Part shown: positions 31,557 to 63,270 of the stretch, piece after piece
Layout: every line of letters starts with the position of its first letter
Numbering within the stretch: position 1 is the stretch's first letter
Origin: Halanaeroarchaeum sp. HSR-CO
GTDB taxonomy: Archaea > Halobacteriota > Halobacteria > Halobacteriales > Halobacteriaceae
Direction of reading: 5' to 3'
NCBI RefSeq assembly: GCF_024972755.1
Contig: NZ_CP087724.1
Coordinates: forward strand, 1,736,001 to 1,800,000
Length of the DNA stretch: 64,000 nt
Translations under genes and position numbers: made by a program
Notes under the pieces: generated by a model
The model's input: only the letters and a program-made list of their open reading frames with translations
Told to the model about the DNA's origin: nothing
Databases searched by the model: none

Positions 31557-31625
31557 ACATTGCGGTTACAATTTCACGGAATAGAAATAGGACGCCCGGA
31601 AAGAGCTGTGGCGTCCCAATGCGTG

Positions 31626-31634
31626 GATTTATTT
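31626..31634 (+). promoter_or_regulatory. TATA-like box of the glmU-glmU-glmS operon
   Basis: GATTTATTT lies about 27-33 bases before the ATG at 31659, so the transcript is probably leaderless and begins at or near the start codon. Confidence 0.4.
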
Positions 31635-31658
31635 CAGGCGTGGGATGAATTGTGGGCC

Positions 31659-41457: not shown

Positions 41458-42205
41458 TGGATTCTAATCTCAGATTGACTTTTTTACCATTTATTCGCGT
41501 AAACGCCGGTTCATGCCCAGGAAAGTCGAACGCTCGAATACGACGAACGATCTCGCTGGGGTCCTCGTCAAGACCGACTTCCCTTTCACCTGCAAGATCA
41601 GCCTTCTTATAATATTTTGTCGTCGAATCTGTAAGTAACTCCTGTTGTGGTTCTGTCTGCACGTCATTTTCAAGTATATCTTCAATATTCGCCACAAAGA
41701 GTTCCCATAGCATTCGTTCCCCCTTTTTATAAAGAGAGTAGCTTGTATCATCAGTGGAAATCGTTTCTTTCTTTCTATCAATCACAGGCCCAGTATCAAT
41801 ATCAACGTCTAGGTAGTGAAGCGTGACGCCAAAGTAGTCTGCATCATCAAGAATAACATGGGTAGCTGTATCCACACCACGATATTCCGGCAAATAACCT
41901 CCGTGAAAATTAACAACACCCTGGTCAAATACATTTAGAACTTCTTCAGGAATTATCTTATTATACCGAACGGTAAATCCGAGATCGGGATCAAGTTGGG
42001 GTATACGTTCTAGATCATATATCGGGATCCCGAGAGAATTTGCAGTGTCCAATACGGGAGTTTTCAACTCAGTGTTTCGCCATCCCGAAACAGGTTCGTT
42101 CGTTGTAACAACACCGACTAGTTTAGCATCTGTGCGATCTGATAGATACTTTATCACATTTCGAGCGAGAGGAATATTACCGAAAACGACTGTTTTTGTA
42201 ACCAT
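41441..42205 (-). CDS. Formyltransferase-like enzyme (Fmt/ArnA N-terminal type)
   Basis: A 254-residue enzyme of the formyltransferase fold: VVFGNIPLARNVIKYLSD at the start, then the active-site VVNFHGGYLPEYRGVDTATHVI (Asn-x-His), HYLDVDIDTGPVIDRK with the catalytic Asp, and a C-terminal segment of about 60 residues. These enzymes put a formyl group from 10-formyl-tetrahydrofolate on an amino sugar or methionyl-tRNA. In a sugar-nucleotide cluster a sugar-4-amine is the likely target. ATG at 42205 was chosen over the longer ORF because a GGTATAAGAAG box lies about 22 bases upstream. First gene of the four-gene operon. Confidence 0.87.
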   Translation of the reverse strand: MVTKTVVFGNIPLARNVIKYLSDRTDAKLVGVVTTNEPVSGWRNTELKTPVLDTANSLGIPIYDLERIPQLDPDLGFTVRYNKIIPEEVLNVFDQGVVNFHGGYLPEYRGVDTATHVILDDADYFGVTLHYLDVDIDTGPVIDRKKETISTDDTSYSLYKKGERMLWELFVANIEDILENDVQTEPQQELLTDSTTKYYKKADLAGEREVGLDEDPSEIVRRIRAFDFPGHEPAFTRINGKKVNLRLESNDEIS

Positions 42206-42285
42206 GTTTGATGAGTACCTCTTCTTATACCCTATTCGAAACTTGCTCAAGAAAGTATTAAAGGTTTCTTCTATATTGTACCTAT
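42206..42285. promoter_or_regulatory. Divergent promoter between formyltransferase and neuB
   Basis: An 80-base spacer with two TATA-like boxes: TATTAAAG (42256-42263), 26 bases before the neuB ATG, and on the other strand GGTATAAGAA (42222-42231), about 22 bases before the formyltransferase ATG. Both transcripts look leaderless, so one regulator could control both halves of the pathway. Confidence 0.55.
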
Positions 42286-43323
42286 ATGTCAAACACAGAA
42301 TCACCGTGGGGTGACGGGATTTTCTATATTGCGGAGGCGGGAGTCAACCACAGCGGGTCTATAGATCGGGCCAAAAAGATGATAGATACCGCGGAAGGGG
42401 CGGGTGCAGATGCTATTAAATTCCAATCATTCGTCGCAGAAGAATCAGTAAGAAAGGAGGAGCGGAAGGCGGATTACCAAGAGGAAAACACCAAAACAGA
42501 AGAATCACAATACGAGATGCTTAAACGATATGAACTGTCCCAAGAGGACCATTACGAACTATTGAAATATTGTGAAGGCAAGGGGATAGAATTTATGACA
42601 ACGGTATCAAGCAGGGCTAGTCTGGACCTCATTCAGGGGATGGATATTCCCATATTGAAGATCGGGTCAAGTGATATTACCAACCATCCGCTGTTGTCCT
42701 CTACAGCTGACCTCGGTAAGCCGATGATCGTGAGTACGGGAATGTCATATATGCAAGAGGTTAATGATGCGTTCGAAGTGATCAGAAACCAAAACGCAAA
42801 GGTCAACCTCGCCTTTTTACATTGTGTTTCAGATTATCCAGCTGACAACGACACGGTGAATTTGAAAGCAATCCGAACAATGGGACAAAATCTCCCAGTT
42901 CAAATCGGGTATTCGGATCACACGATGAATCCCGAAACACCAGCAATAGCCGTGAGTTCTGGAGCAACCATTATCGAAAAACATTTTACACTCGATCGGT
43001 CCCTTGAAGGACCAGACCAAGAAGCGTCTCTAGAACCGGCAGAACTCAAAAAATCAGTTTCCCTCTCCCGACTGGCATACCGTATGCTGGGGGACGGTAC
43101 GAAGTGTCCGACGGAAGCGGAATCTGAAAACCGTCGCAAGGTTCGCCGAAGTATACATGCATCCAACAAACTAGAATCAGGGGACAAAATAACTGAAGAT
43201 GATATAAAGATATGCCGTCCGAATGACGGTATATCACCAGTAGATTTCGACACTGTAGTCGGATCGACAGTCACTTCTTCCATCGACGAAAATAACCCCA
43301 TACAAAAATATCATCTGCAATGA
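42286..43323 (+). CDS. Nonulosonate synthase, NeuB/LegI-like
   Basis: Condenses a hexosamine with phosphoenolpyruvate to give a nine-carbon acid. The 345-residue protein has a TIM-barrel NeuB domain: YIAEAGVNHSGSIDRAK, ADAIKFQSF, LKIGSSDI, and EKHFTLDRSLEGPDQEASLEP, and an antifreeze-like SAF domain at about 285-345 (RRSIHASNKLESGDKITEDDIKI). The metal-binding HFTLDR segment is complete. The protein does not distinguish Neu5Ac, legionaminate and pseudaminate synthases by eye. Followed by the 2-epimerase with an ATGA overlap. Confidence 0.93.
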   Translation: MSNTESPWGDGIFYIAEAGVNHSGSIDRAKKMIDTAEGAGADAIKFQSFVAEESVRKEERKADYQEENTKTEESQYEMLKRYELSQEDHYELLKYCEGKGIEFMTTVSSRASLDLIQGMDIPILKIGSSDITNHPLLSSTADLGKPMIVSTGMSYMQEVNDAFEVIRNQNAKVNLAFLHCVSDYPADNDTVNLKAIRTMGQNLPVQIGYSDHTMNPETPAIAVSSGATIIEKHFTLDRSLEGPDQEASLEPAELKKSVSLSRLAYRMLGDGTKCPTEAESENRRKVRRSIHASNKLESGDKITEDDIKICRPNDGISPVDFDTVVGSTVTSSIDENNPIQKYHLQ

Positions 43324-44483
43324 AGGAAATCGCTATACTCACCGGAACACGCGCAGAGTATGGTCTCCTAAAGGAAACCATGAATCAAATCGACGCTGCA
43401 GGCCACCTCCACTTAAAAATAGTCGTCACTGGAATGCATCTCGTTCCGCGATTTGGGAATACAGTTGCCGAAATCACATCTGATGGGTTCGATATCGATG
43501 AGAGAGTCCACATGCTTTTGGAAGGTGATTCGGGGATCAGCACTGCAAAGTCAATCGGAACCGGGATAACGGGTATCTCACAAGCGTTAGATTCTCTAGA
43601 ACCAGAAGCTCTTTTAGTACTGGGAGATCGAATTGAGGCGTTGGCTGGTGGAGTGTCCGCTGCAACGATGAATATCCCGGTTGTTCACATTGCCGGGGGA
43701 AGTGTTCGAGGAGGGGGAATGATCGATGAATCCATTCGCCATGCATTGACTCGCTTTGCTCACATACATCTGGTCCAATCAGAATCAGATAAAAGAGTTC
43801 TTGAACAAGTCGGGGAAGATCCAAAGCGAATCCATCTCGTTGGTGCCCCAGCTCTGGATCAGATCTCTGCCGGCGAGTTTTCAGACGGGGACGAAGTGAT
43901 CAATCGACTTGATTTAGATCCAAGCGAGAAATTGATCTTGGTCATACAACACCCGATAACTACCAAACCGGAGTTAGCCGGCGAACAAATAGAGTCGACG
44001 ATCAGGGCGGTAGAACAATCCGGTGAACAAGCAGTCATTATCCATCCAAACTCAGATCCGGGGAGGGACAGGATGGTGAGCCACATTAAACAGGTATGTG
44101 AAAGAAACGAAAAAATCGTGGAAACCGAGAACCTTCCTCGGGAGGATTATCTCGGGCTACTCCACGTCGCAGACCTTCTTGTTGGCAATTCTAGCAGCGG
44201 AATCATTGAAGCCCCCTGTTTCGAATTGCCCACGATTGATGTTGGAACGAGACAAGGAAATCGAGAGCGGGCAGTTACAATTTCTCGTGTCTCGCACAAA
44301 CAAGACGAAATCAAGAAGGAGATACAACGCCGACTTGCAGAAGACCATCCCAAAAGAACAGTTGATTGTAAGAAAAGCCCATACTATCATGGAGGGGTAG
44401 CTGAGCGTATCGTAGACATCCTTGTAACGACAACATTTGATCGTGATCTTCTGGACAAGAGCCTCAAGTTGCAATCAATCTAG
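43320..44483 (+). CDS. Hydrolysing UDP-sugar 2-epimerase, NeuC/LegG-like
   Basis: A 387-residue WecB/NeuC-family enzyme that inverts C2 and releases UDP, giving the free hexosamine for the NeuB-type synthase. Seen: LTGTRAEYGLLKETM (typical NeuC start), VLGDRIEALAGG, HIAGGSVRGGGMIDESIRHALTRFA, and the C-terminal VGNSSSGIIEAPCFELPTIDVGTRQGNRE. The protein belongs to the NeuC rather than the WecB branch because of the GDRxEALA and HIAGG-x-GGG segments. Its C-terminus overlaps the convergent 4,6-dehydratase gene by four bases. Its ATG overlaps the neuB stop (ATGA). Confidence 0.92.
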   Translation: MKEIAILTGTRAEYGLLKETMNQIDAAGHLHLKIVVTGMHLVPRFGNTVAEITSDGFDIDERVHMLLEGDSGISTAKSIGTGITGISQALDSLEPEALLVLGDRIEALAGGVSAATMNIPVVHIAGGSVRGGGMIDESIRHALTRFAHIHLVQSESDKRVLEQVGEDPKRIHLVGAPALDQISAGEFSDGDEVINRLDLDPSEKLILVIQHPITTKPELAGEQIESTIRAVEQSGEQAVIIHPNSDPGRDRMVSHIKQVCERNEKIVETENLPREDYLGLLHVADLLVGNSSSGIIEAPCFELPTIDVGTRQGNRERAVTISRVSHKQDEIKKEIQRRLAEDHPKRTVDCKKSPYYHGGVAERIVDILVTTTFDRDLLDKSLKLQSI

Positions 44484-45520
44484 CACACCATATCAGGCAT
44501 TTCCACGTCAAGAGAGGCAGATTCGATGAGATCAATCAATTCGTTTTTGGAAAGCCGCTGTGCATCTTTAGAGGTGTACTCATCGTCGACGAGTTCAGCG
44601 TCCGCATAGTTCACTGAGTCGTATCCAGGAACATCAATCTGAGGAAGAATAACGTACATGTCGTCCAACTCACGAGCCTGCACACTTTCGTCAACGGAGA
44701 CGAGTTTTTCGTGCATTCGTTCGCCCGGTCTCGAGCCCATGATTTCGATGTCGATCTCCTCAGGACTCTGTCCTATACGCGGTGCATACTCCTCAACCAT
44801 CCCGTCGGCCAGAGTACCAACCTCGAAGCTTGGCATTTTGAGCACAAAGACCTCTCCGCTGGTCATGCGCTCATGAGCTTCAAGGACCAGTGCCGATGCT
44901 TCTTCAATCGGCATAATGAACCGCGTCATCTCCGGATTAGTCACTGTCACTGGCCCCCCGTCCTTTATTTGTTGTAAGAAAAGAGGAACCACAGATCCAC
45001 TCGATCCTAGAACGTTCCCGAAGCGAACACAGCCGAACTTGGTTTCGCGATCCCCTTTGTACGCGTTAGCAGCGATCGTCAAGCGCTCCGAGAGGAGTTT
45101 AGTAGCACCCATTACGGATGTCGGGTTCGATGACTTGTCGGTACTTACGGTGACGAAAGATCCGACCTCGGTCTCGAGTGCCGCCCGAATCAGGTTTTGC
45201 GTTCCCTGTACGTTCGTCTGAACAGTCTCAAATGGGTTGTATTCGTTTATACTAACATGCTTTAGTGCAGCTGCATGAAAAACGACATCGATATTCTCCA
45301 TTGCAAGCTCAAGGCGATCCTGATCACGGACGTCCCCCAAAAGATATCGAACGGAGTTATCCTCACCCAGTTCGTTTTGGAGTTCGAACAGGCCCTCCTC
45401 GTTGTTATCGAGAACGCGAACCACGGAAGGATCCTGCTTCAGAATTTCTTCGACCAGATGAGAGCCGATAGAACCACAGCCACCAGTAACGAGTACGTCC
45501 TTTCCAGCGAGAGATGTCAT
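44480..45520 (-). CDS. UDP-GlcNAc 4,6-dehydratase with Met-type triad, LegB-like
   Basis: A 346-residue soluble short-chain dehydrogenase-like enzyme: VTGGCGSIGSHLVEEIL, DVVFHAAALKHVS, then S126-T127-D128-K129 in VTVSTDKSS and VMGATKLL with Met137 and Lys141. In PseB/FlaA1 the spacing is TDK followed 8 residues later by the catalytic Tyr (LYGATK). Here that position is Met, as in WbpM/PglF/CapD. That group keeps the C5 configuration and gives the D-sugar leading to bacillosamine and legionaminate rather than pseudaminate. I infer a LegB-type role. Shares the minus strand with the aminotransferase 55 bases upstream. Confidence 0.88.
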   Translation of the reverse strand: MTSLAGKDVLVTGGCGSIGSHLVEEILKQDPSVVRVLDNNEEGLFELQNELGEDNSVRYLLGDVRDQDRLELAMENIDVVFHAAALKHVSINEYNPFETVQTNVQGTQNLIRAALETEVGSFVTVSTDKSSNPTSVMGATKLLSERLTIAANAYKGDRETKFGCVRFGNVLGSSGSVVPLFLQQIKDGGPVTVTNPEMTRFIMPIEEASALVLEAHERMTSGEVFVLKMPSFEVGTLADGMVEEYAPRIGQSPEEIDIEIMGSRPGERMHEKLVSVDESVQARELDDMYVILPQIDVPGYDSVNYADAELVDDEYTSKDAQRLSKNELIDLIESASLDVEMPDMVC

Positions 45521-45575: not shown

Positions 45576-46712
45576 CTATTCGACCGCGTCAGCCACTCCG
45601 TCAACAATCCGAGTTACCTCCTCCGTTGAGAGGTTCGGGTGCATGGGCAACGATAGCACCCGGCTCGAGATGTCATCCGTGACCGGAAGGTCCGGAATTA
45701 CTTCCTTCGTGTTTGTGTAGTACTCAGTTCGATGGACTGGCGGATCCCAGTACACCTTCGAGGCGATATTTCGGGCGTCTAGCGTTTCGATCACGTGATC
45801 CCGATCGATCCAGTGAGCTAGTTCGACAGTGTACAGTTGATAAACATGAGTTCCATTCTCTGGCGACTCGTGAGGTTGTACTCCATCGACGTCTGCGAAT
45901 CCGTCATCAAGTTCCGCTGCAGCTTGCCGACGTCCTCCGATGAGCGAGTCGATTCGATTGAGTTGTGAACAACCTAGTGCAGCCGTAAGATCTGACATCC
46001 GAATATTGGTACCGAGGTCGACGTACTGTCCAGAGTCCGAGCTCTCGAAATAGTCGTTTGACGCGCGACCATGCGATCGATATAATTTCAGCTTTTCAGC
46101 TAGGTCGTCGTCGTCAGTAACGACGGCCCCTCCTTCCCCCGTCGAGACGATTTTATTCTGGCAAAAGCTGAGGGTTGCCGCGTCGCCGAAAGAGCCGAGT
46201 TTTTGGTTCTCAAGTTCCGCACCGAGGACTTCTGCAGCATCTTCAATTAGAGAAATGTCGTGATTTTGGGCGATTTTAGTGAGTTCGTCGACGTGACTTG
46301 GCGTTCCGTATGGGTGTACAGGCACGATTGCGGTCGTCAATTCGGAAATTTTCTTTTCAACTGCAGATGGGTCCAGCCCATAGTATTCTGGTTCAATATC
46401 GGCAAATATCGGTTCAGCACCTGCAAGGCGGACAGCGTTTGCAGTGGCTATGAAAGTAAAGGAGGGAACAATTACTTCGTCACCATCACTAATCCCAACC
46501 GCATTAAATGCCGCTACTAATGCAGTAGTACCTGAATTTACTACCACAGCATGTTCCACGTCGAGATATTGCTCAAGATTTGATTCGAATTCGGTGACAA
46601 ATGGACCTTTCGCCCAGTGACTACCTCTTTCGACAGAATTCGTCACACCTGAAACATCAAAATCGTCCCAATCGATTTCAAAAAGTGAAATCGGTTCAGA
46701 GGCCTTATCCAT
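45576..46712 (-). CDS. DegT/DnrJ/EryC1-type sugar aminotransferase, LegC-like
   Basis: A 378-residue PLP sugar aminotransferase: VVVNSGTTALVAAFNAVG, VPSFTFIATANAV, LIEDAAEVLGAE, and the PLP lysine in LSFCQNKIVSTGEGG. Such enzymes transaminate the 4-keto group made by the neighbouring 4,6-dehydratase, giving a UDP-4-amino-sugar. A TTTACTTT box is about 22-26 bases before the ATG. The gene's codon use is close to the dehydratase but the two are separated by 55 bases, so they form an operon. Together they supply the aminated intermediate to an acyl- or formyltransferase and the 2-epimerase. Confidence 0.92.
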   Translation of the reverse strand: MDKASEPISLFEIDWDDFDVSGVTNSVERGSHWAKGPFVTEFESNLEQYLDVEHAVVVNSGTTALVAAFNAVGISDGDEVIVPSFTFIATANAVRLAGAEPIFADIEPEYYGLDPSAVEKKISELTTAIVPVHPYGTPSHVDELTKIAQNHDISLIEDAAEVLGAELENQKLGSFGDAATLSFCQNKIVSTGEGGAVVTDDDDLAEKLKLYRSHGRASNDYFESSDSGQYVDLGTNIRMSDLTAALGCSQLNRIDSLIGGRRQAAAELDDGFADVDGVQPHESPENGTHVYQLYTVELAHWIDRDHVIETLDARNIASKVYWDPPVHRTEYYTNTKEVIPDLPVTDDISSRVLSLPMHPNLSTEEVTRIVDGVADAVE

Positions 46713-48246: not shown

Positions 48247-48965
48247 GGTGCTGTTTAGATTAGTACTAGAAACTAGAAAGGTAATTTTATAGAAAAATGA
48301 GGCGGATGATTTCAAGTGTTTATGGAAGAAATCAGCCGCCTCAATGGTTCTAGCGACCCTATCGAGTTAGATTTTGTGGAACGCGTAGCCACGCCGAAAG
48401 AGATGATGGAGCTGGCAATTCACCTTCATCTCTGTGGACTATCTATTTCAAATACAGTCTCTGTTCTTGATAGGTTAGGAATCTCTCGTGCTCGATCGAC
48501 CATTCACAACTGGGTGCAGAAAGCGGATCTCGAACCGGAAGCTGGGCGAGAACCCGGGAAAATTGCTCTCGATGAGACGGTCATCAAAGTCAACGGAGAA
48601 CGGTTCTGGCTGTATTCTGCGGTCGATGTAGAAAACAATGAAATCCTGTATTTAGCCCTCTATCCGTCCAGAACGACGGCTTTAACGAAGATGTTTCTTC
48701 GTGAATTGGGCGAGAAACACGACGTCGAAGACGCTGAATTTTTCGTGGACGGGGCGCCCTGGCTGCATGCCGGGCTGTTCGAACTGGGCATGCACTTTCG
48801 CCACGAAACCTTCGGTGAGCGGAATCCTGTAGAACGTGTCTTTCAAAAAATAAAACATCAAACTCAACAATTCTATAATATATTCTCCCGCGCATCAGCT
48901 GAATCGCCGGAAAATTGGCTCAAAGCGCTCGCGTGGGCATGGAAACAGCTGATCTGAACAGCGCC
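48247..48965 (+). mobile_element. Complete IS6-family insertion sequence
   Basis: Inverted repeats: GGTGCTGTTTAGATTAG (48247-48263) and, on the right, CTGATCTGAACAGCGCC (48949-48965), complementary with three mismatches. The flanks are CACAAATG (48239-48246) and TACAAATG (48966-48973), 7 of 8 bases identical. IS6 elements make 8-bp target duplications, so this looks like a fairly recent insertion. Contains one intact transposase gene. Confidence 0.85.
48322..48957 (+). CDS. IS6-family transposase
   Basis: A 211-residue DDE transposase. N-terminal helix-turn-helix (SISNTVSVLDRLGISRARSTIHNWV), catalytic residues D84 (ALDETVIK), D143 (FFVDGAPWL) and E171 (NPVERVFQ). It has no stop or frameshift, so it may still be active. 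The ATG at 48322 is preferred over the GTG two codons upstream. Family length is typical (about 210-230 aa). Full-length copy; similar fragments are at 47926-48197 and 50382-50525. Confidence 0.9.
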   Translation: MEEISRLNGSSDPIELDFVERVATPKEMMELAIHLHLCGLSISNTVSVLDRLGISRARSTIHNWVQKADLEPEAGREPGKIALDETVIKVNGERFWLYSAVDVENNEILYLALYPSRTTALTKMFLRELGEKHDVEDAEFFVDGAPWLHAGLFELGMHFRHETFGERNPVERVFQKIKHQTQQFYNIFSRASAESPENWLKALAWAWKQLI

Positions 48966-49015: not shown

Positions 49016-50368
49016 ATGAAGACAATATTGATTACAGTGGATGCGTTGAGAGCAGACCATTTATCCCAATATGGTTATCATAGAAAAACCCTACCAGCAC
49101 TAGATTTGTTAGAGGGAGAAAGTGTTCGGTTTGAGAACGCATTTGCAAATGGCCCGTACACTAGAATTTCAGTACCATCAATCCATACGGGACAATATTT
49201 AGGCTATGAAATCATTCAAAATTCACCAACTATCGCATCAATCCTAGGAGACAATGGGGTAGTGACTGCGGGATTTGGTACCCAAGCAGGACTAAACAAG
49301 GTTGATGTTGAGGGTGACTTAATATTTGATACGTTTATTGATTTTGGTCAAGATCAAAATAAAAATAAATTCGAACAAAATAGGCCTTATAGGGACAAAG
49401 TAGCAGAACAGATAGCACAAAGCCAATTATTGAAGAATGATATGATTTATTCTTTGGCAAAATATATACACAATAAGTTACCATTATCGATCGGTAATCC
49501 AGTACCAACAGCTGGGTATACCAGCGCTGAAACTGTCACAGAGAACGCAATAGAATGGATGGAAGCCCATCAAAATGAGGAGTATTTTTTATGGCTTCAT
49601 TATATGGAAGCACACAGACCATATGGAGTCCATGATGCTAGTCATAAATACATCGAGGGTACTGTTAATGTTGAGGAAGCAAATGCCATAGCTCGGAGAG
49701 CGGACATCAGGCCAAATAGCTTAACTAAAGATGAGCAAAATATGTTAATTAATCTTTATGATTCAGATATCCGATATGGTTCAAAACATATTTCGAAATT
49801 ATTCAGGTATTTGAAAAATGAGGAAATATGGGACGAAACAAATATAATATTCACAAGTGACCATGGAGAGGGATTTGGTGAACATGAACATTACTTCCAT
49901 GGATATCAACCCTACGAGGAATTGATTCACGTTCCCTTAATCGTAAAAGGGCCTACGTCAGACGAATATGATAATATAGTTAAACAAAGAGAGTTGGTAG
50001 ACTTAGCCCCAACTATTCTAGACTACCATGGTGTTGATTTTGATGACAAGCATTTTGATGGTCATAATCTTTTTGATGAAAAAGAACGGCGAGTAATAGC
50101 TATAGGATCACAAATGAATGATGGTTCAGTAGTTGCAGGTCGTTGGAACAAATGGAAGTACATTCACATTGAGGGAGAAGAAGAACTCTATGATTTATCG
50201 GCCGACCCCCAAGAGAAAGAATCAATAGCAACTAATTATCCGAAAGTAGTACAAAATTTTAAAATGGCCATTCCAAAACGATTATTTAATCAGAAGGCTG
50301 AAGAAATCCAAGTTCCAGATGACCATCAGGAGCGTAAACAACTTAAGGCACTAGGATATCTAAAATAA
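49016..50368 (+). CDS. Sulfatase-fold protein without formylglycine motif
   Basis: A 450-residue alkaline-phosphatase-superfamily enzyme: TVDALRADHLSQYG with the metal-binding Asp, the nucleophile region GPYTRISVPSIHTG, LHYMEAHRPY, and TSDHGEGFGEH with Asp-His ligands. Aligned to the sulfatase C-x-P-x-R...TG block, the Cys/Ser position is Thr49, so it lacks the formylglycine site and resembles Thr-nucleophile phospho- or phosphoethanolamine transferases or phosphatases. It ends QLKALGYLK, like the other two in this island. Flanked by IS6 remnants on both sides in opposite orientation. An AGTATACAAG box is about 22 bases upstream. Confidence 0.82.
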   Translation: MKTILITVDALRADHLSQYGYHRKTLPALDLLEGESVRFENAFANGPYTRISVPSIHTGQYLGYEIIQNSPTIASILGDNGVVTAGFGTQAGLNKVDVEGDLIFDTFIDFGQDQNKNKFEQNRPYRDKVAEQIAQSQLLKNDMIYSLAKYIHNKLPLSIGNPVPTAGYTSAETVTENAIEWMEAHQNEEYFLWLHYMEAHRPYGVHDASHKYIEGTVNVEEANAIARRADIRPNSLTKDEQNMLINLYDSDIRYGSKHISKLFRYLKNEEIWDETNIIFTSDHGEGFGEHEHYFHGYQPYEELIHVPLIVKGPTSDEYDNIVKQRELVDLAPTILDYHGVDFDDKHFDGHNLFDEKERRVIAIGSQMNDGSVVAGRWNKWKYIHIEGEEELYDLSADPQEKESIATNYPKVVQNFKMAIPKRLFNQKAEEIQVPDDHQERKQLKALGYLK

Positions 50369-53108: not shown

Positions 53109-53296
53109 CTTACAAAGAACGCCGATATCCGTCAGTAAAATCTTTGTTGTTCCGACGACTAGTTAATTACAGATCTTCTCATTCCTAGATTATTTGGTTT
53201 GTGCAATAAATACGGTATATATTTATGATTATCACATTTCGGAAGGTGCTGAGAGAAGAACCATTAATAGAGTTGCGGACGAGTATCTTTAATAAG

Positions 53297-54595
53297 ATGA
53301 CACTAAATGTCCTTATTGCTTCAGGGCAATGGGGTATAGGGGGTACGGAGAAGGCAGCAGAGTTATTGTTGAGAAATCTCGGTTCAGACTTCAACGCCTA
53401 CGGGGCAGGTCTCCATCGCGGCGGTGCAAGAGCTGATTCGTTACTAGAAGACGAGTACGACATCTATTTTCCCGACGATTCCGACGATTTCGCCAATTAT
53501 CTACAGAACAACGCTATTGATATCATTCATAGTCATTCTGGCGATCCCGAGTTGATCAGCGAAGCCGCAGCCAAAGCCGGAACCCCGATAGTAGTTCGAA
53601 CCGATCAATTTGGAAGATATTTCCAGCCAGATAATGGAAAAGTTATTGACTATTTTTTCTTCCCCTCCCAGTCGATTCTCCTGCGAACGCTCATGCTAAA
53701 TCAAATTAGTCTCGAAGAAGATTGGCCTCGAAAAATGGGTCTTTTATATAATCCGCTGGATATTGACAATGTCTCTCAGGGGATGTCGATGCGTTCGAGA
53801 TATAATATACCCGAAACTGCTCCTGTAGTCGGTAAGATTGGTAGGCCTGCCCCTGAAAAGTGGGGAAAACTCACCATTGACGCATTTGATCGGGTAGTTA
53901 AATCTGTACCGAACGCCCAACTCTTTCTCGTAGGGGTTCCAGACAAAATCAAGAATGCAATTCAGAGTTATGGGTGGGGGCATAAAGTAACGTATGAAGG
54001 CGTTCTCCCCCCCGACAAAGTGAAAGATTTCTATGCAACAATAGACGTGCTCGCACACACGAGTGCGATAGGTGAAAGTTACGGATACGTTATCGCAGAA
54101 GCGATGGCCAATGGGGTAGTACCCGTGGTCGATTCGACACCTATGCGTGACAACGCGCAGATCGAGCTTGTGAACCATGGCCACTCAGGCTATGTAGCCA
54201 ATTCACCACAGTCGTACGGTGAGGCAATAACGAAATTACTCAATGACAACAAATTACGGCGGCAGTTCGGGAAAGCGGCAGGTATACGCGTCAATCGATT
54301 CTCCGTCCAAAATGTCGTATCTCGGCTCGAAGATTATTATCGGCGCTTATCAGCTGAGCGCGGATTAATATCAGATTCAGACCCCGTTTCGCTCACCTAT
54401 ACATCACAACGAAACTCTCTGCTGAATTTCGCAGACGGAAACAATAAACGACTCAACCAAAGTTTCGGGGATGATGATGTTTTTCACTGGCTAGAACGAC
54501 AATCTTGGCGCTGCGTCACTTCGCTCCCAATCGGGAGAAAACCTACGTTCGACCTTTTACGCAAAGGGTTTATAGTTGCCAACGAACGTATATGA
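53297..54595 (+). CDS. GT4-family glycosyltransferase
   Basis: A 432-residue GT-B enzyme. N-terminal start NVLIASGQWGIGGTEKAAELL, donor-binding C-terminal domain with VVGKIGRPAPEKWGKLTID, VTYEGVLPPDKV, and the E-x7-E-like GESYGYVIAEAMANG with the catalytic and nucleotide-binding Glu pair. Typical of retaining group-1 glycosyltransferases. ATG at 53297 is preferred as CCATTAATAG lies about 31 bases upstream; the ORF could begin 24 codons earlier. Adjacent to a nucleotide-sugar pair on the opposite strand, and an ISH6 relic follows. Confidence 0.88.
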   Translation: MTLNVLIASGQWGIGGTEKAAELLLRNLGSDFNAYGAGLHRGGARADSLLEDEYDIYFPDDSDDFANYLQNNAIDIIHSHSGDPELISEAAAKAGTPIVVRTDQFGRYFQPDNGKVIDYFFFPSQSILLRTLMLNQISLEEDWPRKMGLLYNPLDIDNVSQGMSMRSRYNIPETAPVVGKIGRPAPEKWGKLTIDAFDRVVKSVPNAQLFLVGVPDKIKNAIQSYGWGHKVTYEGVLPPDKVKDFYATIDVLAHTSAIGESYGYVIAEAMANGVVPVVDSTPMRDNAQIELVNHGHSGYVANSPQSYGEAITKLLNDNKLRRQFGKAAGIRVNRFSVQNVVSRLEDYYRRLSAERGLISDSDPVSLTYTSQRNSLLNFADGNNKRLNQSFGDDDVFHWLERQSWRCVTSLPIGRKPTFDLLRKGFIVANERI

Positions 54596-54654: not shown

Positions 54655-55980
54655 TTAGAATTGGTCTCGGGTAGTCGGTTTTTCCACCTCGATTGCTAAG
54701 TTTGTAGTGGCGGTTGTGCCGATCTGTTCGCGAGCGAAGTCAGCATACAATTCGGGATGAATTACATTGACGAACGTAAGCGTCAACATCGCCTGAATTC
54801 CGTCCCGAGTCCACGCATCCACGGTTCTTACACCGTTTCGAGACTTCTCCCATAACCCGTTCAAGCAAATTTGAGGTCCAAGGCACACGACGGCCCTCAA
54901 TAGCACCTTCAGCAAACCGAGTCAAAGCTAGTATCCATTTCCTCAGGAAACTGGCTGATCCCTCACATCCATCCAATTCGAGATGCCACGCAGTGCGCTC
55001 CAGCCGGCTTTCCGTCGAAGCAATGCGCTTACGGATTGCATCCCATTCCCCGGCTGGGTGGTGTAACTCAACGGTATTCTTCAAATAGAGACGTCTCCAC
55101 GGATTTCGTTCGCGTAGGCTTTGTGTTCTGTGAGGGGAAGTTACTCGTCTTCCCACAACGTATGCAGGAGCGACTGAGGTGCCTGCACGAAATCGAACTG
55201 ATGGGGCCGATCGCCGTGACTGAATGCTCCGACAAGAGGTTCTTCGCCATCACCCACCACGGCAGCGTCTTGAGTGATTACCGACCGCTCAGTCAGCTCT
55301 GTGGCTATCTCTTCCCAGGGTTCGTCAACACTCACGTCAAGCAGCGAGGTATCGAATTCTTCGCCAACACCTCCCGTGAAAGGGAGACGTGGATGGTGTA
55401 GTAGGCGTCTTCTTCTTAACTATGGACTTTCGTGCCGTCCGGAATGACTGTCTGGAACCCTTCTTCCTCGGTGTGTTCGGTGAGAGGTTCCCGAAGTTGT
55501 GGTCAATACTCGATGACACGCCGGTTGATCGTGGCGGGAGACAACATCGGAAGGACTCGCTCGCCGAGCGCCGTGGCGTCCCAGTAACTGGTCTTGGTTG
55601 CTAAGGTGGCCTCGCTGAATGAATTGCACTGTTGGTACTGTTTTCAACCGTTGAAAGTGAGAATGTCGCCAATCGGTCGGAAGTGTGATTGCTGGTCATC
55701 ATCTGCTGCCGTATCTTCGAGGTACGTGAGCCAAATCGTCGACTCACCGAGTACCGTGACGATGGTGCGAGTCGATGTGGCACTTCGCCGGTATCGCTTC
55801 CTCCCATTTCCGGGGTTGTGCTTCTACCCGCAATATGCCTAGACGGCTTGGTCATCGAGACTTTCGATCAATTGCTTAAACTGGATCCGGCCGAATCCAG
55901 TCTCCTGAAACTCCTGGGCAAGTGCACCCACCGTGATGCATTTGTCCTGTGCTATTCGTATGACTAGCCTCACGTCGGTT
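54655..55980 (-). pseudogene. ISH6-family transposase relic
   Basis: Read on the minus strand from about 55980 the pieces, in three frames, are: SQEEDAYYTIHVSLSRE near 55400, DVSVDEPWEEIATELTE and VVGDGEEPLVGAFSHGDR (55141-55335), and LKNTVELHHPAGEWDAIRKRI, TAWHLELDGCEGSASFLRKW, PWTSNLLERVMGEVSKRCKN (54740-55156), then VDAWTRDGIQAML and PELYADF. This is the order and wording of the ISH6 family (for example PWTSNPVERAMGEVSKRCKN). Multiple frameshifts show it is dead. The 5' end near 55980 is approximate. Confidence 0.78.
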
Positions 55981-56146
55981 GTGGCGTGTATGGGATGTTT
56001 CCGTGGTGATCACCCGATACGTCCCATTCCAGGACTTTAGTTCTAAACAGGTCTGAAACACAACCAAATATATTTATTACGATGATCAATTGGCTATTTG
56101 ATGTATATTGTAACCCTTAAGGGGGTTGTACGATTATTCGGAATTA

Positions 56147-57160
56147 ATGACGAACACAGACCATGAATTAAATATTGAAAATATTACTAAAGCAATAAAG
56201 TATCCAAAACGTGCTGTTGATGATGTTTTATTGTACTATACACTTAGATACTTTTTGACCCGATTGAATACAAAATACAACATCGGAACCAATGTATTTG
56301 ATAAACAGTGGGATTTGTTAATCATTCTCGATACTTGTCGTATCGATGCATTAAATTTGGTTAGTAGTGAATATGAATTTATTAATGAGATTGATTCTAT
56401 AACATCCCTTGGAAGCGCAACACCAGAATGGGTTGCGAGTACATTTGTAAGTGATTACACTGATGAGATCAGCAATACAACGTATATTACTGCTAATGCT
56501 ATGGCAAAATCAATATTGGAAGATTCTGTTCAAAATAGTGAAAATGCCCATTTATTATTGAGGAGTTTACGCCGACATCACACAGTTGACGATGCCGCTT
56601 TGAATGAACTCATCTATGTATTTGATCATGAAGGTATTGGACAGAGAGGACCGCTGGGCCATGAAGAGGGAATGACTCCGCCAGAATATGTCACTAATAA
56701 CACTATAGACCACATGAGAAATAATTCAACGGATCGGGTTATTGCGCATTATTTCCAACCTCACTTTCCGTGGTCAGTTAAGGGGTTGACCGAAAATAGA
56801 CCATTGAAAAAGTTTGAGAAGAACCCATGGGATTATTTAAAAAACAAAGGAGATAAAACCAAAGTCTGGAAATCATATATTAATGAATTGAAATATGTGC
56901 TAAATAGTATTGAAACATTATTAAATAATGTTGATGCAGACAGGGTTGTGATAACTGCTGATCATGGTGAGGCCTTTGGTGAATTTGGGATTTTGGGTCA
57001 TAAGATTGGATCCATCCATCCTCAAATCCGAAAAGTACCTTGGGTAGAAACGTCAGCCACTAATAATCAAACGTACACCCCAGATCTATTGGGAAGCGGT
57101 ACCGATCGGAACACTTTTGATGCTAATCAACAGCTAAAAGCGTTGGGTTACAAACTATAA
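56147..57160 (+). CDS. Sulfatase-like alkaline-phosphatase-superfamily protein (second)
   Basis: A 337-residue protein: LLIILDTCRIDALN (the metal Asp), LGSATPEWVAS with probable Thr/Ser nucleophile at 90-92, AHYFQPHFPWS, and VITADHGEAFGEFG with the Asp-His ligands, and GHKIGSIHPQIRKVPW. It ends QLKALGYKL. It is the long sister of the gene at 27153 (same LLDxCR-D start, HYFQPH/HFMQPH and DHGE blocks), inserted between an ISH6 relic and an IS5-like copy. No formylglycine motif. Start: the ATG at 56147 is chosen over a TTG seven codons earlier. Function inferred as glycan modification. Confidence 0.75.
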   Translation: MTNTDHELNIENITKAIKYPKRAVDDVLLYYTLRYFLTRLNTKYNIGTNVFDKQWDLLIILDTCRIDALNLVSSEYEFINEIDSITSLGSATPEWVASTFVSDYTDEISNTTYITANAMAKSILEDSVQNSENAHLLLRSLRRHHTVDDAALNELIYVFDHEGIGQRGPLGHEEGMTPPEYVTNNTIDHMRNNSTDRVIAHYFQPHFPWSVKGLTENRPLKKFEKNPWDYLKNKGDKTKVWKSYINELKYVLNSIETLLNNVDADRVVITADHGEAFGEFGILGHKIGSIHPQIRKVPWVETSATNNQTYTPDLLGSGTDRNTFDANQQLKALGYKL

Positions 57161-57182
57161 AACCATTAGTTTTGTTTTGGAC

Positions 57183-58117
57183 GGCTCTTTTGAATCCACA
57201 GAGGGCGCGGGAATCACGGTTTCACGGACCATTTAACATTGTGAACCGGGGGGCCGAGAGCTATCTCCCGAAATTGACGAAACCAGGCCCGATAGGATAC
57301 GGAATCAAGGATTGAGCGTTTTATCGAAAAGTCCACGGTTTCTGTCAACGGTCGTTGATTGTACAAATCCGCATCAAGCCGCGCATTATGCGCGTGGTCT
57401 ATCGGTTGATAGAAACGATGTTTGATGAGTGGACGAACACCGTTTTCACGGAGCTGGTCTCTGAAAGCCGCCTAATCATATCCCTTATCGGCAGCCAAAC
57501 TCTCCAAACTGACAGTATTCCGACGTGAAAGTTCCGGCCCAATTTTCGCGTCATTTGGCCATTTCGCCGAGACATCAAGGTCAATTATTGCCTGGTCGGC
57601 AGTGTCGATCAGTAACGTTACTTTGAGTAGTTCGACCGACCTATCAATCCGCCGTGAGTAATCTGAGGACGCTTGATTCCGATCAAAAAACGTCGCATCA
57701 ACCGCCCCACGTCCGGACCGTTCTAGCAAGGTTGCGGACCGTCACAACAATGTTCGCCAGACCTGCATCGGCGCACGATTAAACGAACGGTAGAGCGTTG
57801 GTCCAGATGGAAAACCGTGATGTGGTAACTGAAACAATCCACGGACGTGATCCATCTCTGAGGCCAAGTCAGCCACGCCTTCGTACGACTTTTCTTCATG
57901 TACTCGAAGGTAGTGAAGAACAACGTGTTTCCATCCAGCAAATCCGTTACCTTTCGGATTGCTAACCTTGAGGAGACCGGCGGCGGAATATTTTTGAGCA
58001 AGACTCTTGATTTGCTTGACGAAGCGGAAGAGTACTTTTGGCACAACTGTACTCTCCCGCATCGTACTACTAGTTCCGTCAGATTAACTAGATTCTGTCT
58101 CTAAATTCAATAGAGCC
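57183..58117 (-). mobile_element. IS5-like element, copy 2 (inactive)
   Basis: Inverted repeats: GGCTCTTTTGAATCC (57183-57197) and AAATTCAATAGAGCC (58103-58117), complementary with three mismatches. The interior is closely similar to the copy at 46919-47855 (TLMSRRNGQMTRKLGRNFHV, AVDATFFDRNQASSDYSRRIDRSVE, and the N-terminal KVLFRFVKQIKSLAQKYSAAGLLKV). Stops and frame changes split it into three frames. A target duplication is not obvious. Confidence 0.72.
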
Positions 58118-58165: not shown

Positions 58166-59065
58166 ATGAGTCCAAGGTACTCCATCGCAATAATCCACCT
58201 AAATATGGTTGATACTGTTGCGCAATCATTAACGAGTATTCTAGATCAAATAGGCTCTGAATATGAAGTAGTCGTAGTAGATGACGGTTCCACCGATGGC
58301 AGCGAAGAAATTCTGAAACGACTAGAAAATGTATATGAAAATCTCAAGATAGATTTTCATGCGGGAAATGAAAATCATGGCGAAGCAAGAAATCATGCGG
58401 TTCAGCTTGCCGAAGGTGAGTATATTATAGGCGATATTGACGCTGATAACGTCTACTGCCCATCAATAGAAGAATTCGTGAAGATTTACCACCAAATAGA
58501 AGACGTAAAGGAAGAGAATTTTATGCTTCTCGGAACTGGTATTTACATTGCGCCTCGACAATTGCTAATCGATATTCCATATCGTAGTATTGGATATGGT
58601 GAGGACAGAGATCTATATAGGAGATTGCTTGCAAAAGATGCGTGGCTAAGTTTGAGTCACAGGGGAATTAGTGCAGAAATTGGGTACCATGACTCGATAA
58701 TTGATTGGATTACGAACGGTGTCGAAACTATATCCAATCAATTTCGGAGCGGGGTCCATTTACTTCCTTATCTGAAATGGGCTGCAGAGGAAATGGTAGG
58801 AAAGAGGACCCGAATTTCGAAGGTGCGGGGTGCAATGCATCTCTCCGTGGCAATTCCCGCATATGTGAATTCTATGCGGTTTGAAAAGTTAAAAACGCCA
58901 GAAAATTTTCAAGATATTGGAAAATTCAAAGAAAAGGTCGTGGAAAATCATATGACGTTATCGCAAATGGAGGATAGATTTGGCATTAGTGTTGATCGAG
59001 AATCACTAAGGGCGACTGGAAAATGGCTTTACGATATCAATGAACTTACACCGAGAATCGACTGA
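58166..59065 (+). CDS. GT2-family glycosyltransferase
   Basis: A 299-residue GT-A enzyme: YSIAIIHLNMVDTVAQSL at the start, EVVVVDDGSTDGSEEIL, GNENHGEARNHAVQLAEGEYIIGDIDADN where the DxD-like DIDAD metal site lies, and YGEDRDLYRRL. This is inverting GT2 in style. AT-rich; begins at ATG 58166, which is 49 bases after the IS5-like copy. The next gene on the other strand is the sialyltransferase-like protein. Both may assemble the same glycan. Confidence 0.85.
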   Translation: MSPRYSIAIIHLNMVDTVAQSLTSILDQIGSEYEVVVVDDGSTDGSEEILKRLENVYENLKIDFHAGNENHGEARNHAVQLAEGEYIIGDIDADNVYCPSIEEFVKIYHQIEDVKEENFMLLGTGIYIAPRQLLIDIPYRSIGYGEDRDLYRRLLAKDAWLSLSHRGISAEIGYHDSIIDWITNGVETISNQFRSGVHLLPYLKWAAEEMVGKRTRISKVRGAMHLSVAIPAYVNSMRFEKLKTPENFQDIGKFKEKVVENHMTLSQMEDRFGISVDRESLRATGKWLYDINELTPRID

Positions 59066-59086: not shown

Positions 59087-60157
59087 TTAAAGTATCGTGA
59101 CAATATTTTCAGTCAAATTCAAGAAGTGATCAATATTATCGCATAGCCTGTCGGATGATGTATAAGACCTCAATAAATTTGCTGCGGTATAACTTTGGAT
59201 ATCAAATATCGCTGCTGCAGTTAGTAACGCTGTGCTAGTGAAGCCTACGACGGAATCGGGATCCGAGATATCATAAATTTCCTCAACTGGAATCGATTTT
59301 GCCAAAACTTCGACAGAGTCGTATCTGGATTGTATTGATTCATATTTATCCTCAGTCTCCCTTGGGTGTGGCTTGATTCCTATGTGAGAGTCTCCTGGCA
59401 GCTGAGATATAATATCGTGGATAAGAGATAATTCATCATTTTCAGAGAGATCGCTTGCCTCACCGAAAGGTTGTGTGATAATTATGCAGTCATATTCTTG
59501 AATGGATTTCTCCACATGGAAGGTTTGGCGGTAAAAACCGGCGATGTCATCATTAACACTAAGCTTGGAATCCTCAAGTGAAAAAATATGGAAGGTTTTG
59601 ATGGTAAATTGCTGTAACAATCGCGATTCGATTAGTTTGTGAATTTGTCCGACTGTATCAGCCACCACTTGCCGCAGACCAGAATCTAAATCAAACTTTC
59701 GTAATCGGTCTTTGCGATTAATTTTCCGAAATTCTTCCTGCTTAATATAAGTGCCGAACCCTTCATCAATAGTAATGAATTGAGGAGAAAAGTATTCATA
59801 AAAATGACGACCGATTGAAAGCAAGTTAATGTCTGGCTTCATTGGGGCAATGATATAGAGTATATTTCCGCTATCAGATAGATTCTGATGTAATAATTCC
59901 TTTGTAGATGAGATATTTAGCAGCATCCACGATAGAAAGTTGTCTTCGAATATATCGTCCCAATAAAATACATTAATATCGTCATCAAGGTAACTAAAAT
60001 CATTCTTTTCCAATAAATAACCATCTGCTAGATGGGGCTTGATGAGAATTATACCTTTTGAAAGATCATATTTTAAGGCTGCTGCTCGTATTCCCCGAGC
60101 ATGGAACGGAGTGATAGCCATTGCTACAAATTCAATATCCTCAGGTATACGTGACAT
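59087..60157 (-). CDS. Sialyltransferase-like protein with DEG, HP and ST motifs
   Basis: A 356-residue cytoplasmic GT-B-like protein. Residues 125-136 read SPQFITIDEGFG, with Asp-Glu-Gly at 131-133; residues 260-266 read GIKPHPR, with the His-Pro at 264-265; residues 305-311 read GFTSTAL, with Ser-Thr at 308-309. A D/E-D/E-G motif, an HP motif and an S-S/T motif in this order are what I know of bacterial (poly)sialyltransferases (GT38/GT52/GT80). No TM helix. In a window with a nonulosonate pathway this is the natural transferase for the CMP-sugar. ATG at 60157 is chosen (MSRIPEDIEFVAMAITPFH); 60193 is possible. Confidence 0.72.
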   Translation of the reverse strand: MSRIPEDIEFVAMAITPFHARGIRAAALKYDLSKGIILIKPHLADGYLLEKNDFSYLDDDINVFYWDDIFEDNFLSWMLLNISSTKELLHQNLSDSGNILYIIAPMKPDINLLSIGRHFYEYFSPQFITIDEGFGTYIKQEEFRKINRKDRLRKFDLDSGLRQVVADTVGQIHKLIESRLLQQFTIKTFHIFSLEDSKLSVNDDIAGFYRQTFHVEKSIQEYDCIIITQPFGEASDLSENDELSLIHDIISQLPGDSHIGIKPHPRETEDKYESIQSRYDSVEVLAKSIPVEEIYDISDPDSVVGFTSTALLTAAAIFDIQSYTAANLLRSYTSSDRLCDNIDHFLNLTENIVTIL

Positions 60158-60610: not shown

Positions 60611-61072
60611 ATGATTCAAGGGGTAAAAACACGAAACTTGGAAGTCAATACTGACGAACGTGGACACCTCGTCGAAATGTTCAGGGAGGATTGGGACATT
60701 TACGACCCTTCTCCAGCGATGTCGTACTTCTCTCTCTCTTATCCGGGAGTCGTCCGTGCCTGGCACCGACATACCCGAGGACAGGTGGACCACTTTGTCG
60801 TCCCACAAGGACATGTGAAGGTTGGCATCTACGACGACCGTTCTGACTCCCCAACTCAGAGTGAACTTAACACATTCGTAATCGGTGAACACAATCAACA
60901 GGTGATTCGAATACCGGGGGAATGTTGGCACGGCTTCAAAGTCGTAGGTAATGAACAGGCCCTCCTAATCAACTACCCCACCAACCTCTACGATTACGAC
61001 GACCCCGACGAAGAGCGCCTTCCTCCAGACACGGACAAAATTCCGTTAGACTGGGACGAGGAGACCCACTGA
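60611..61072 (+). CDS. rmlC: dTDP-4-dehydrorhamnose 3,5-epimerase-like cupin
   Basis: A 153-residue cupin: TDERGHLVEMFRED at the start, SYPGVVRAWHRHTRGQVDHFVVPQGHVKVGIYD with the active-site His cluster, and CWHGFKVVGNEQALLINYPTNLYDYDDPDEERLP, the RmlC signature end. It is shorter than the typical 180 residues but has the core. It epimerises C3 and C5 of dTDP-4-keto-6-deoxyglucose in dTDP-L-rhamnose synthesis; a 3-epimerase or ketoisomerase variant cannot be ruled out. 5 bases before rmlA, in an operon that ends with a small zinc-binding protein. Confidence 0.87.
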   Translation: MIQGVKTRNLEVNTDERGHLVEMFREDWDIYDPSPAMSYFSLSYPGVVRAWHRHTRGQVDHFVVPQGHVKVGIYDDRSDSPTQSELNTFVIGEHNQQVIRIPGECWHGFKVVGNEQALLINYPTNLYDYDDPDEERLPPDTDKIPLDWDEETH

Positions 61073-61077
61073 AGACA

Positions 61078-62151
61078 ATGAAAGGAGTGCTCCTCTCCGG
61101 TGGCACTGGCTCTCGGCTTCGGCCAATTACGCATACTGGACCGAAACAGTTGGTCCCAGTGGCAAACAAACCAGTGCTCCAGTATGCGATTGAGGCGTAT
61201 CGGGAGGCGGGAATCACGGAAATCGGGGTCATTCTCGGAAATACGGGCCGAGAAGACGTCCAGGAATTCCTGGGTGACGGCTCGGACTTCGGCGTTGAGA
61301 TCACGTACATCGTTCAGGGTGAACCACTTGGACTGGCACACGCCGCCGGATGTGCAAAGGATTTCGTTGGTGATGACGACTTCGTGATGTTCCTGGGCGA
61401 TAATATACTCAAACAGGGAATCTCCGATCTCGTCGATAGTTTCAAGGCGGGAGATTACGCGGCCGGAATCGCATTACAAGAGGTAGACAATCCCCAACAA
61501 TTTGGAATCGCCGACGTCGACGAAAATGGAACCGTTCAGGAGCTCATCGAAAAACCAGACGACCCACCGAGTAATCTCGCTCTGATCGGCATCTATGCCT
61601 TTTCGCCACTCGTCTTCGATGCCATCGATGACCTGGAGCCCTCCTGGCGCGGTGAACTCGAAATCACTGATGCCATACAGTCATTACTCGACGATGGCTA
61701 TGCAATCGACTCACACGTCGTGGAGGGATGGTGGAAGGACACTGGGAAACCGGAAGACATCTTGGAGGCAAATCGTCTCGTACTTGAGCAGCATCCCGGG
61801 GGGCTCAACGGGACTGTCGAGGACGGGGCGACAATCGAGGGATACGTCGACCTGCACGCTACTGCCAAAGTAGAAGGAAACGCCGTCATTAGAGGCCCTG
61901 TCAGTATCGCTGAGGGAACGACAATCAAGGACGGGACGTACATTGGACCGTACACCTCGGTCGGACCAAACAGTACGATAGAGAACACGCACATCGAGAA
62001 CAGTGTCATCATCGGCGACTCGACGATAACGACATCGGAGAAAATCGTCGATAGCCTCCTTGGCAGTGGGACGGTCATATCTACTGCTGAAGGCCTCAAG
62101 CCAGAAGGGAAGCGACTGATCGTCGGGGAGAATTCGAACCTCAAATTGTAA
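61078..62151 (+). CDS. rmlA: Glucose-1-phosphate thymidylyltransferase, long form
   Basis: A 357-residue enzyme: LLSGGTGSRLRPITHTGPKQLVPVANKPVL at the N-terminus, FLGDNILKQGI, EKPDDPPSNLALIGIYAF, EGWWKDTGKPEDILEANRLVL, and a C-terminal beta-helix (EGNAVIRGPVSIAEGTTIKDG) that marks the archaeal long RmlA. It makes dTDP-glucose from dTTP and glucose-1-phosphate. Family-typical LSGGTGSRLRP motif is complete. 5 bases after rmlC and 2 bases before a 59-residue gene. Confidence 0.92.
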   Translation: MKGVLLSGGTGSRLRPITHTGPKQLVPVANKPVLQYAIEAYREAGITEIGVILGNTGREDVQEFLGDGSDFGVEITYIVQGEPLGLAHAAGCAKDFVGDDDFVMFLGDNILKQGISDLVDSFKAGDYAAGIALQEVDNPQQFGIADVDENGTVQELIEKPDDPPSNLALIGIYAFSPLVFDAIDDLEPSWRGELEITDAIQSLLDDGYAIDSHVVEGWWKDTGKPEDILEANRLVLEQHPGGLNGTVEDGATIEGYVDLHATAKVEGNAVIRGPVSIAEGTTIKDGTYIGPYTSVGPNSTIENTHIENSVIIGDSTITTSEKIVDSLLGSGTVISTAEGLKPEGKRLIVGENSNLKL

Positions 62152-62153
62152 CG

Positions 62154-62333
62154 ATGAAAATTTACACCACAACGTGTGAACAATGCGGTACCGTCGTCGC
62201 AGGGAATATTCTCGAGAAGCGCCGCGAAATAAAGTGCCCCAGAATTACCTGTGACAACGTCCTCTCGTTTTCAGATCTGCCTGAAGAGGCGCAGAACCAT
62301 CTCGAAGCCCATACAGATCGATACGCTGTTTAA
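62154..62333 (+). CDS. Small zinc-binding-type protein between rmlA and rmlD
   Basis: A 59-residue protein, MKIYTTTCEQCGTVVAGN and onward, with two cysteine pairs CEQC (8-11) and CPRITC (about 28-33), giving a probable four-Cys zinc site. It starts 2 bases after the rmlA stop and ends with TAA at 62331-62333, overlapping the convergent rmlD stop by 4 bases. The remaining 25 residues form an acidic helix (DLPEEAQNHLEAHTDRYAV). The arrangement with rmlA suggests a regulatory or accessory subunit role. I do not recognise the family. Easily missed because of size. Confidence 0.62.
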   Translation: MKIYTTTCEQCGTVVAGNILEKRREIKCPRITCDNVLSFSDLPEEAQNHLEAHTDRYAV

Positions 62334-63220
62334 TCGGACAGCGACCTCGCAATAAAGGACACATCAGCATCTACTGTCGGAACGGATTCAGTGAGTTCCT
62401 GGGCGATCTTATCCGTCGCAAGACAGCTGTATTGTGGGCGTTCTGCGAGAAAATCTACAGCAGACATCGTCGATGAGTGGAGAGTGCCTTTCAAATTGAG
62501 GGACTCCGTGAGAATCCGGCCGAGCTCCTTCGGAGTTACGCATGAAGAAGATGCCACGTGGAAGTGGCCAGACGCACCCCTTTGAATCAGTGAAAGAATT
62601 GCCTGCGCAGCGAAGCCCACACGGGTCGGCGTGATTCGCTGATCGGTGAAGAGGGAAACCTCCCCTTCAGATTTCAGCTGGTCTCTGACCCAGGCAGGGA
62701 ATCCATTCAATTGTCCGGTAAACCCATGAATTCCGTAATTGAATGACGTTCGAACGATTAGAGACTCCGAGTCCACCTCATGGACGCCAATTTCCCCGGC
62801 TAATTTCGTTTGCCCGTATGCCTGTACGGGGTTCGGCGCTGATTCTTCGGTGTATGGGGTTTCAGTACCCCCATTGAAGACGTAATCAGTCGAGATCTGG
62901 ACAAAATCAATCCCACGTACACGACACCGTTTGGCCATTTTACGTGGTGCCTGGGCGTTGATTTGGAAAGCCTCGTCACGATTTTGCTCACATCCATCCA
63001 CGTCCGTCATCGCCGCACAGTTGATAACGACATCAGGCCCGTAGCGATCGAGCACCCGTTCAAATTTGTCCCCGTCTCGGATATCCAACCGCTCGAACGT
63101 TCCTTCAGATTCTGGTGATTCTGAATGAAACGTGCCGACGACTTCCATCCCCGCATCCTGAGCAGAAGAAAAGATGGCACTTCCGAGAAGACCAGTCACA
63201 CCCATGACGAGGATTCGCAT
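62330..63220 (-). CDS. rmlD: dTDP-4-dehydrorhamnose reductase
   Basis: A 296-residue extended SDR enzyme: MRILVMGVTGLLGSAIFSSA, VINCAAMTDVDGCEQNRDEAFQINA, FVQISTDYVFNGG, and YGQTKLAGEIGVHE with the YxxxK pair. NADPH-dependent reduction of dTDP-4-keto-L-rhamnose to dTDP-L-rhamnose. ATG at 63220 is chosen (a longer ORF starts 5 codons earlier); TATA-like boxes lie in the shared 50-base spacer with rmlB. Converges on the small zinc-binding gene. Confidence 0.93.
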   Translation of the reverse strand: MRILVMGVTGLLGSAIFSSAQDAGMEVVGTFHSESPESEGTFERLDIRDGDKFERVLDRYGPDVVINCAAMTDVDGCEQNRDEAFQINAQAPRKMAKRCRVRGIDFVQISTDYVFNGGTETPYTEESAPNPVQAYGQTKLAGEIGVHEVDSESLIVRTSFNYGIHGFTGQLNGFPAWVRDQLKSEGEVSLFTDQRITPTRVGFAAQAILSLIQRGASGHFHVASSSCVTPKELGRILTESLNLKGTLHSSTMSAVDFLAERPQYSCLATDKIAQELTESVPTVDADVSFIARSLSD

Positions 63221-63270
63221 ACCCAATGAACACACCTTTATCCTACATAGGTGCTACTGACTCAAATAGA
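63221..63270. promoter_or_regulatory. Divergent promoter between rmlD and rmlB
   Basis: The 50-base spacer holds CTTTATCCT (63236-63244), about 30 bases before the rmlB ATG. On the minus strand CCTATGTAGGATAAAGG (63235-63251) lies 20-30 bases before the rmlD ATG. Both genes are probably leaderless and share the element. Confidence 0.45.

Follow-up and report, generated by a model that had tools for sequence, protein, structure and literature searches.

A GT38-type glycosyltransferase in a haloarchaeal surface-glycan island as a candidate CMP-nonulosonate transferase

The open reading frame at 59087-60157 (minus strand) of the 64,000-nucleotide stretch analysed here, hereafter the window, encodes a GT-B glycosyltransferase which, judged by its profile match, is a clear member of the PF07388 (GT38-type) family. 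We consider it probable that this protein is a CMP-nonulosonate transferase which adds a legionaminic acid residue, perhaps N-formylated, to an AglB-dependent N-glycan. Family membership, the match of the predicted fold, the conservation of key residues and the genomic linkage form the established part of this reading, and are presented below together with the alternatives on which they bear.

Results

Reading frame and motifs

The frame at 59087-60157 corresponds to 356 amino acids and begins at an internal ATG. The longest frame at the locus starts at 60265 (392 amino acids) and ends at the same stop, at 59087, but the start at 60157 is the one which fits the homologues. A preliminary description of this DNA had placed three motifs in the protein, and their positions are exact: D131-E132-G133 (59759-59767, minus strand), H264-P265 within K262-P-H264-P265 (59363-59374, minus strand) and S308-T309 (59231-59236, minus strand). 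A glutamate absent from that description, E292 (59282-59284, minus strand), may be added to the predicted catalytic set.

Alone, the three short motifs are weak evidence. They recur in the same order in 3.7% of shuffles of the candidate protein, or in 0.7% when loose spacing limits are imposed. A fuller pattern ([DE][DE]G, [KR]xHP, E-15aa-S[ST]) occurs in 5e-5 of shuffles, a figure that applies to a pattern picked post hoc. Among window ORFs of at least 150 amino acids, the candidate is the only carrier of the KxHPxE...S[ST][AS] signature. Such motifs being unremarkable by themselves, a sialyltransferase reading has to draw on the profile match, the predicted fold and the genomic setting.

Family assignment

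The real evidence for the family is the profile match rather than the motifs. In an hmmscan search, PF07388 (alpha-2,8-polysialyltransferase, GT38 type) matched the candidate with an E-value of 4.9e-26 and 92.5 bits, relative to a cut-off of 23.3. The match spans residues 127-325, starting just upstream of D131-E132-G133 and thus including it, while the N-terminal third of the protein lies outside. In the same search GT52 (PF07922) fell short of its cut-off (25.5 bits versus 26.1), and no Pfam model for GT80 was among the matches up to E 10. The proposed comparison with PF07388, GT52 and GT80 therefore placed PF07388 first, with no other GT-B family ahead of it; of the likeness once drawn to all three sialyltransferase families, that to GT38 is clear, that to GT52 lies just under the cut-off and that to GT80 found no match.

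PF07388 matches each of the 12 proteins in alignment A3. Two positions, H264 and E292, do not vary among these homologues, and G133, R266, E267 and L311 hardly do. Neither the candidate protein nor alignments A1 and A2 retrieved anything meaningful from the PDB by sequence search, and no relatives were found in plasmid, PHROGs or viral-contig searches. A contig scan with alignment A2 recovered one Bacteroidales relative and nothing else.

Predicted fold

Two AlphaFold2 models were built from alignments of 12 and 8 sequences, the poorer alignment A4 being left out of folding. Their pTM values were 0.69 and 0.61 and their mean pLDDT 64 and 65. Confidence is high in the C-terminal domain and low over a large part of the N-terminal one, the loop close to E132 included. 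For both models the first two ranks in the PDB were occupied by MhPST (5wcn, 5wc6), with top E-values of 6e-11 and 4e-11. Matches to MhPST ranged from 4e-11 to 7e-9 in E-value and from 0.40 to 0.52 in TM score, values to be read with the low-confidence N-terminal domain in mind. GT80 enzymes followed in the first model's list and the GT52 enzyme 2yk5 in the second's. The structural comparison suggested earlier thus led both models to a GT38 polysialyltransferase, HP loop included.

In MhPST, a solved GT38 enzyme, the base is E153 (D/E-D/E-G motif) and the acid H291 (HP motif), while E323 contacts the ribose and S339/T340 the phosphate (PMC5517516). The corresponding residues of the candidate are E132, H264, E292, S308 and T309, a correspondence read from order and spacing, with the PF07388 match behind it, and not from a residue-by-residue structural alignment. 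The glutamate-to-serine spacing is 16 in both proteins (E292-S308 and E323-S339), and the base-to-histidine spacing is 132 in the candidate versus 138 in MhPST.

These comparisons bear on whether the candidate might be a GT-B enzyme using another donor, such as a UDP-, dTDP- or GDP-sugar, with the nonulosonate being moved by some other protein, for instance the GT4 glycosyltransferase of the same island (53225-54595, plus strand). Further GT-B enzymes do appear among the fold-search matches, and the direct neighbours of the gene are a GT2 gene and dTDP-sugar genes, the latter being RmlC-like (60611-61072, plus strand), RmlA-like (61078-62151, plus strand) and RmlD-like (62330-63235, minus strand). 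Yet the PF07388 profile is conserved along with the residues that would contact CMP, the fold searches rank a CMP-Neu5Ac enzyme in complex with CDP first, and the candidate's relatives are linked to NeuB-type genes. We regard a different donor as very improbable.

Genomic neighbourhood

The preliminary description had reported a complete CMP-nonulosonate cluster 12 kb away and an adjoining GT2 enzyme. The distance is 12.4 kb to the end of the LegC-like gene, and the cluster is essentially complete. It comprises an aminotransferase (LegC/PseC-like; 45576-46712, minus strand), a 4,6-dehydratase (LegB/PseB-like; 44480-45520, minus strand), a NeuC/LegG hydrolysing UDP-sugar 2-epimerase (43320-44483, plus strand; TIGR03568, 393.5 bits against a cut-off of 235.9), a NeuB/LegI nonulosonate synthase (42286-43323, plus strand; PF03102, 2.3e-85), a candidate sugar N-formyltransferase (41441-42304, minus strand; PF00551, 1.5e-20) and a CMP-nonulosonate synthase (LegF/NeuA/PseF-like; 38763-39467, minus strand; PF02348, 6.5e-27; PseF, 1e-49, below the equivalog cut-off). 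No dedicated N-acetyltransferase was found within the cluster. The combination of NeuC, LegB and LegC points to a legionaminic-type donor and not to Neu5Ac polymerisation.

Between the CMP-sugar synthase and NeuB (39464-42304) the formyltransferase is accompanied by an ATP-grasp protein (PylC-like N-terminal, carbamoyl-phosphate-synthase-like; 39464-40468, minus strand) and a PLP enzyme of the D-cysteine desulfhydrase/CuyA-like family (40456-41457, minus strand). Together, the three may equip the nonulosonate with an unusual N-acyl group. In the related islands that were examined, tblastn found no match to either the PLP gene or the ATP-grasp gene.

The GT2 gene (58166-59065, plus strand; PF00535, 4.1e-21) is convergent with the candidate, which is monocistronic; between it and the nonulosonate genes lie further sugar genes, a transposase fragment and sulfatase-like genes. 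At 49016-50368 and 56126-57160 are a sulfatase-family gene (PF00884) and a second ORF without a Pfam match, with homologues close to NeuB in further haloarchaea (L077, L078); a role in glycan sulfate or phosphate metabolism is possible. The transposase fragment and short broken ORFs inside the island (48316-48957, 54740-58062) suggest repeated insertion and decay. Elsewhere, two sugar nucleotidyltransferase genes adjoin GlmS (31560-35811), and AglB, with further glycosyltransferases, is found 6.3 kb beyond the candidate gene.

Distribution and linkage to NeuB

In a phylum-wide sample of 394 genomes, PF07388 was matched in eight and NeuB in 81. Counting all eight as NeuB-linked members (8/8) was rejected: the scores of the three weak matches (G337, G273, G321) lie close to the cut-off or below it, and for G337 PF04464 is the better fit. 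Their removal left five secure members, and the family is rare in the phylum. All five occur in genomes with NeuB (p about 3e-4, for co-occurrence alone), at gaps of 16.1, 13.2, 7.2, 0.9 and 5.6 kb from it. Archaeal homologues in three further genomes (G126, G186, G1064), as well as the one from Bacteroidales, adjoin LegB/LegC/NeuB/LegF/NeuC-type genes. Linkage to nonulosonate genes across archaea independently supports a role in nonulosonate transfer. As glycan genes cluster in any case, it is better evidence for work on one and the same glycan than for a particular donor; the argument for the donor is carried by the PF07388 profile and by the residues predicted to contact CMP.

No PF07388 protein was found in most NeuB-bearing haloarchaea of the 394-genome sample, where another family must therefore perform nonulosonate transfer. 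Several haloarchaea without PF07388 have, about 3-15 kb from NeuB, large GT-B-like proteins of another group (some 470-610 amino acids), which is poor in Pfam matches and shows an HPRE...STAL region resembling that of the candidate. Its members are L054 (G541; 1270-2685, minus strand), L056 (G066), G076:C1:1992197, G045:C4:175176, G104:C1:1436807 and G630:C24:14499; this group is possibly the nonulosonate transferase of such organisms.

Homologues and gene transfer

The closest homologue is a Methanosarcina acetivorans-type protein (L005), which matches PF07388 over almost the whole profile, at positions 2-314 (E 4e-29). In the tree, this protein, the candidate and a haloarchaeal protein from genome G090 form one clade (support 98/99); another clade (99/98) groups two haloarchaeal proteins with three further archaeal ones from the phylum. 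The G090 protein (L002; 1435-2514, minus strand) is the nearest haloarchaeal homologue. It keeps KPHPRE and STALLT and lacks the DEG catalytic-base segment, a loss which looks like an internal in-frame deletion. Not every archaeal copy, then, need be active.

The family is distributed patchily, occurring in 4 of 196 relatives and in one of 31 genomes from the genus to which the Methanosarcina acetivorans-type genome (G502) belongs. Local G+C content is about 38%, compared with 55% for the window, and the neighbouring sugar genes are A+T-rich too. Patchiness and A+T-richness are consistent with horizontal transfer. Together with the transposase fragment and the G090 homologue that lacks the catalytic-base segment, they could also describe a horizontally acquired gene that is decaying or inactive, were it not that the frame of the candidate is full-length with every predicted catalytic residue kept, and that its A+T-richness is common to functional-looking sugar genes beside it. 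Of the readings weighed here we hold decay to be the least probable.

Discussion

Proposed mechanism and acceptor

As a nonulosonate transferase, the candidate would be an inverting GT-B enzyme of the PF07388 family. We infer the donor sugar from the neighbourhood: it would be the product of the island at 38.7-46.7 kb, a nonulosonate activated with CMP and probably identical with legionaminic acid or an N-formyl derivative of it. The C-terminal Rossmann domain would hold CMP, its ribose contacted by E292 and its phosphate by H264, S308 and T309. From the N-terminal domain, E132 would deprotonate the acceptor hydroxyl, and H264 would stabilise the CMP leaving group. One residue would thereby be added to a growing or finished lipid-linked N-glycan, which the nearby AglB would then attach to surface glycoproteins. 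What we infer beyond family, fold, conservation and linkage is the exact donor, the acceptor, the transfer of one residue only, and catalysis as a whole.

The same CMP-nonulosonate transferase might instead act on an exopolysaccharide or a lipid-linked surface polymer, possibly adding several residues in the manner of bacterial GT38 enzymes. GT38 is a polysialyltransferase family (PMC5517516), the window holds a Wzx-like flippase gene (30486-31241), and the Methanosarcina homologue adjoins a flippase and a pyruvyltransferase, not AglB. However, AglB lies 6 kb from the candidate in an island resembling the N-glycosylation island of Halorubrum sp. PV6, and identity to MhPST over the structural match is low (15-17%), such that polymerisation cannot be transferred from one to the other. 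We consider a polymer acceptor unlikely. The preliminary description had proposed a (poly)sialyltransferase-family nonulosonate transferase; family, fold and linkage support this, while nothing supports a polymerising activity.

Significance

Archaeal members had been thought new in this role, an expectation that does not hold at the level of annotation: PF07388 already matches in Methanosarcina acetivorans and Methanocaldococcus jannaschii. What we describe is therefore a candidate for an unassigned step and not a new kind of enzyme. A functional assignment would still be of value. No characterised archaeal GT38 enzyme was found in the literature searched, which was largely openly accessible. 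With some hesitation, and as a proposition slightly more doubtful than probable, we suggest that this may be the first archaeal enzyme to which the transfer of a sugar resembling sialic acid is assigned, being a GT38-type protein which places N-formyl-legionaminic acid onto an N-glycan and has been exchanged between methanogens, haloarchaea and bacteria with nonulosonate clusters. More broadly, surface-glycan islands of archaea contain members of the polysialyltransferase family of bacteria, patchily and probably through transfer.

Comparison with known systems

Legionaminic acid is documented as a terminal sugar both of a haloarchaeal N-glycan and of virus spikes which carry it. Halorubrum sp. 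PV6 possesses an N-glycan containing N-formyl-legionaminic acid, encoded by an N-glycosylation island (PMC6137143). The PV6 island shares with the window LegB, LegC, NeuC, NeuB, LegF, a formyltransferase and a sulfatase, as well as a nucleotidyltransferase adjoining GlmS, glycosyltransferases and AglB. Glycosyltransferases are listed in that study, which describes the legionaminic acid pathway, with no legionaminic acid transferase named among them (PMC6137143); the window gene, its Methanosarcina homologue and their linkage pattern offer a concrete candidate for such an enzyme. PV6 itself may use another transferase family, given the scarcity of PF07388 among the NeuB-bearing haloarchaea sampled.

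The Methanosarcina acetivorans-type protein is 31% identical to the candidate, shares its motifs and lies 5.6 kb from NeuB. Its locus differs from the window in that AglB was not found among the genes annotated there.

Among bacterial enzymes, the candidate most resembles the GT38 polysialyltransferases (MhPST, PDB 5WC6/5WCN; E. coli NeuS; N. meningitidis SiaD), having in common with them an above-cut-off Pfam profile, the best fold match, the order of D/E-D/E-G, HP, ribose-binding glutamate and Ser-Thr at similar spacing, and a link to CMP-nonulosonate synthesis genes. It differs in being archaeal, and in a donor that is probably of legionaminic type and an acceptor that is probably an N-glycan. 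The GT52 LOS sialyltransferases (NST, PDB 2YK5; PF07922) show weak profile and fold matches and the same logic of HP and Ser-Thr, with PF07388 a far better fit, while the GT80 sialyltransferases (PmST1 and the Photobacterium enzymes) share the GT-B architecture and appear through fold matches rather than through a Pfam profile.
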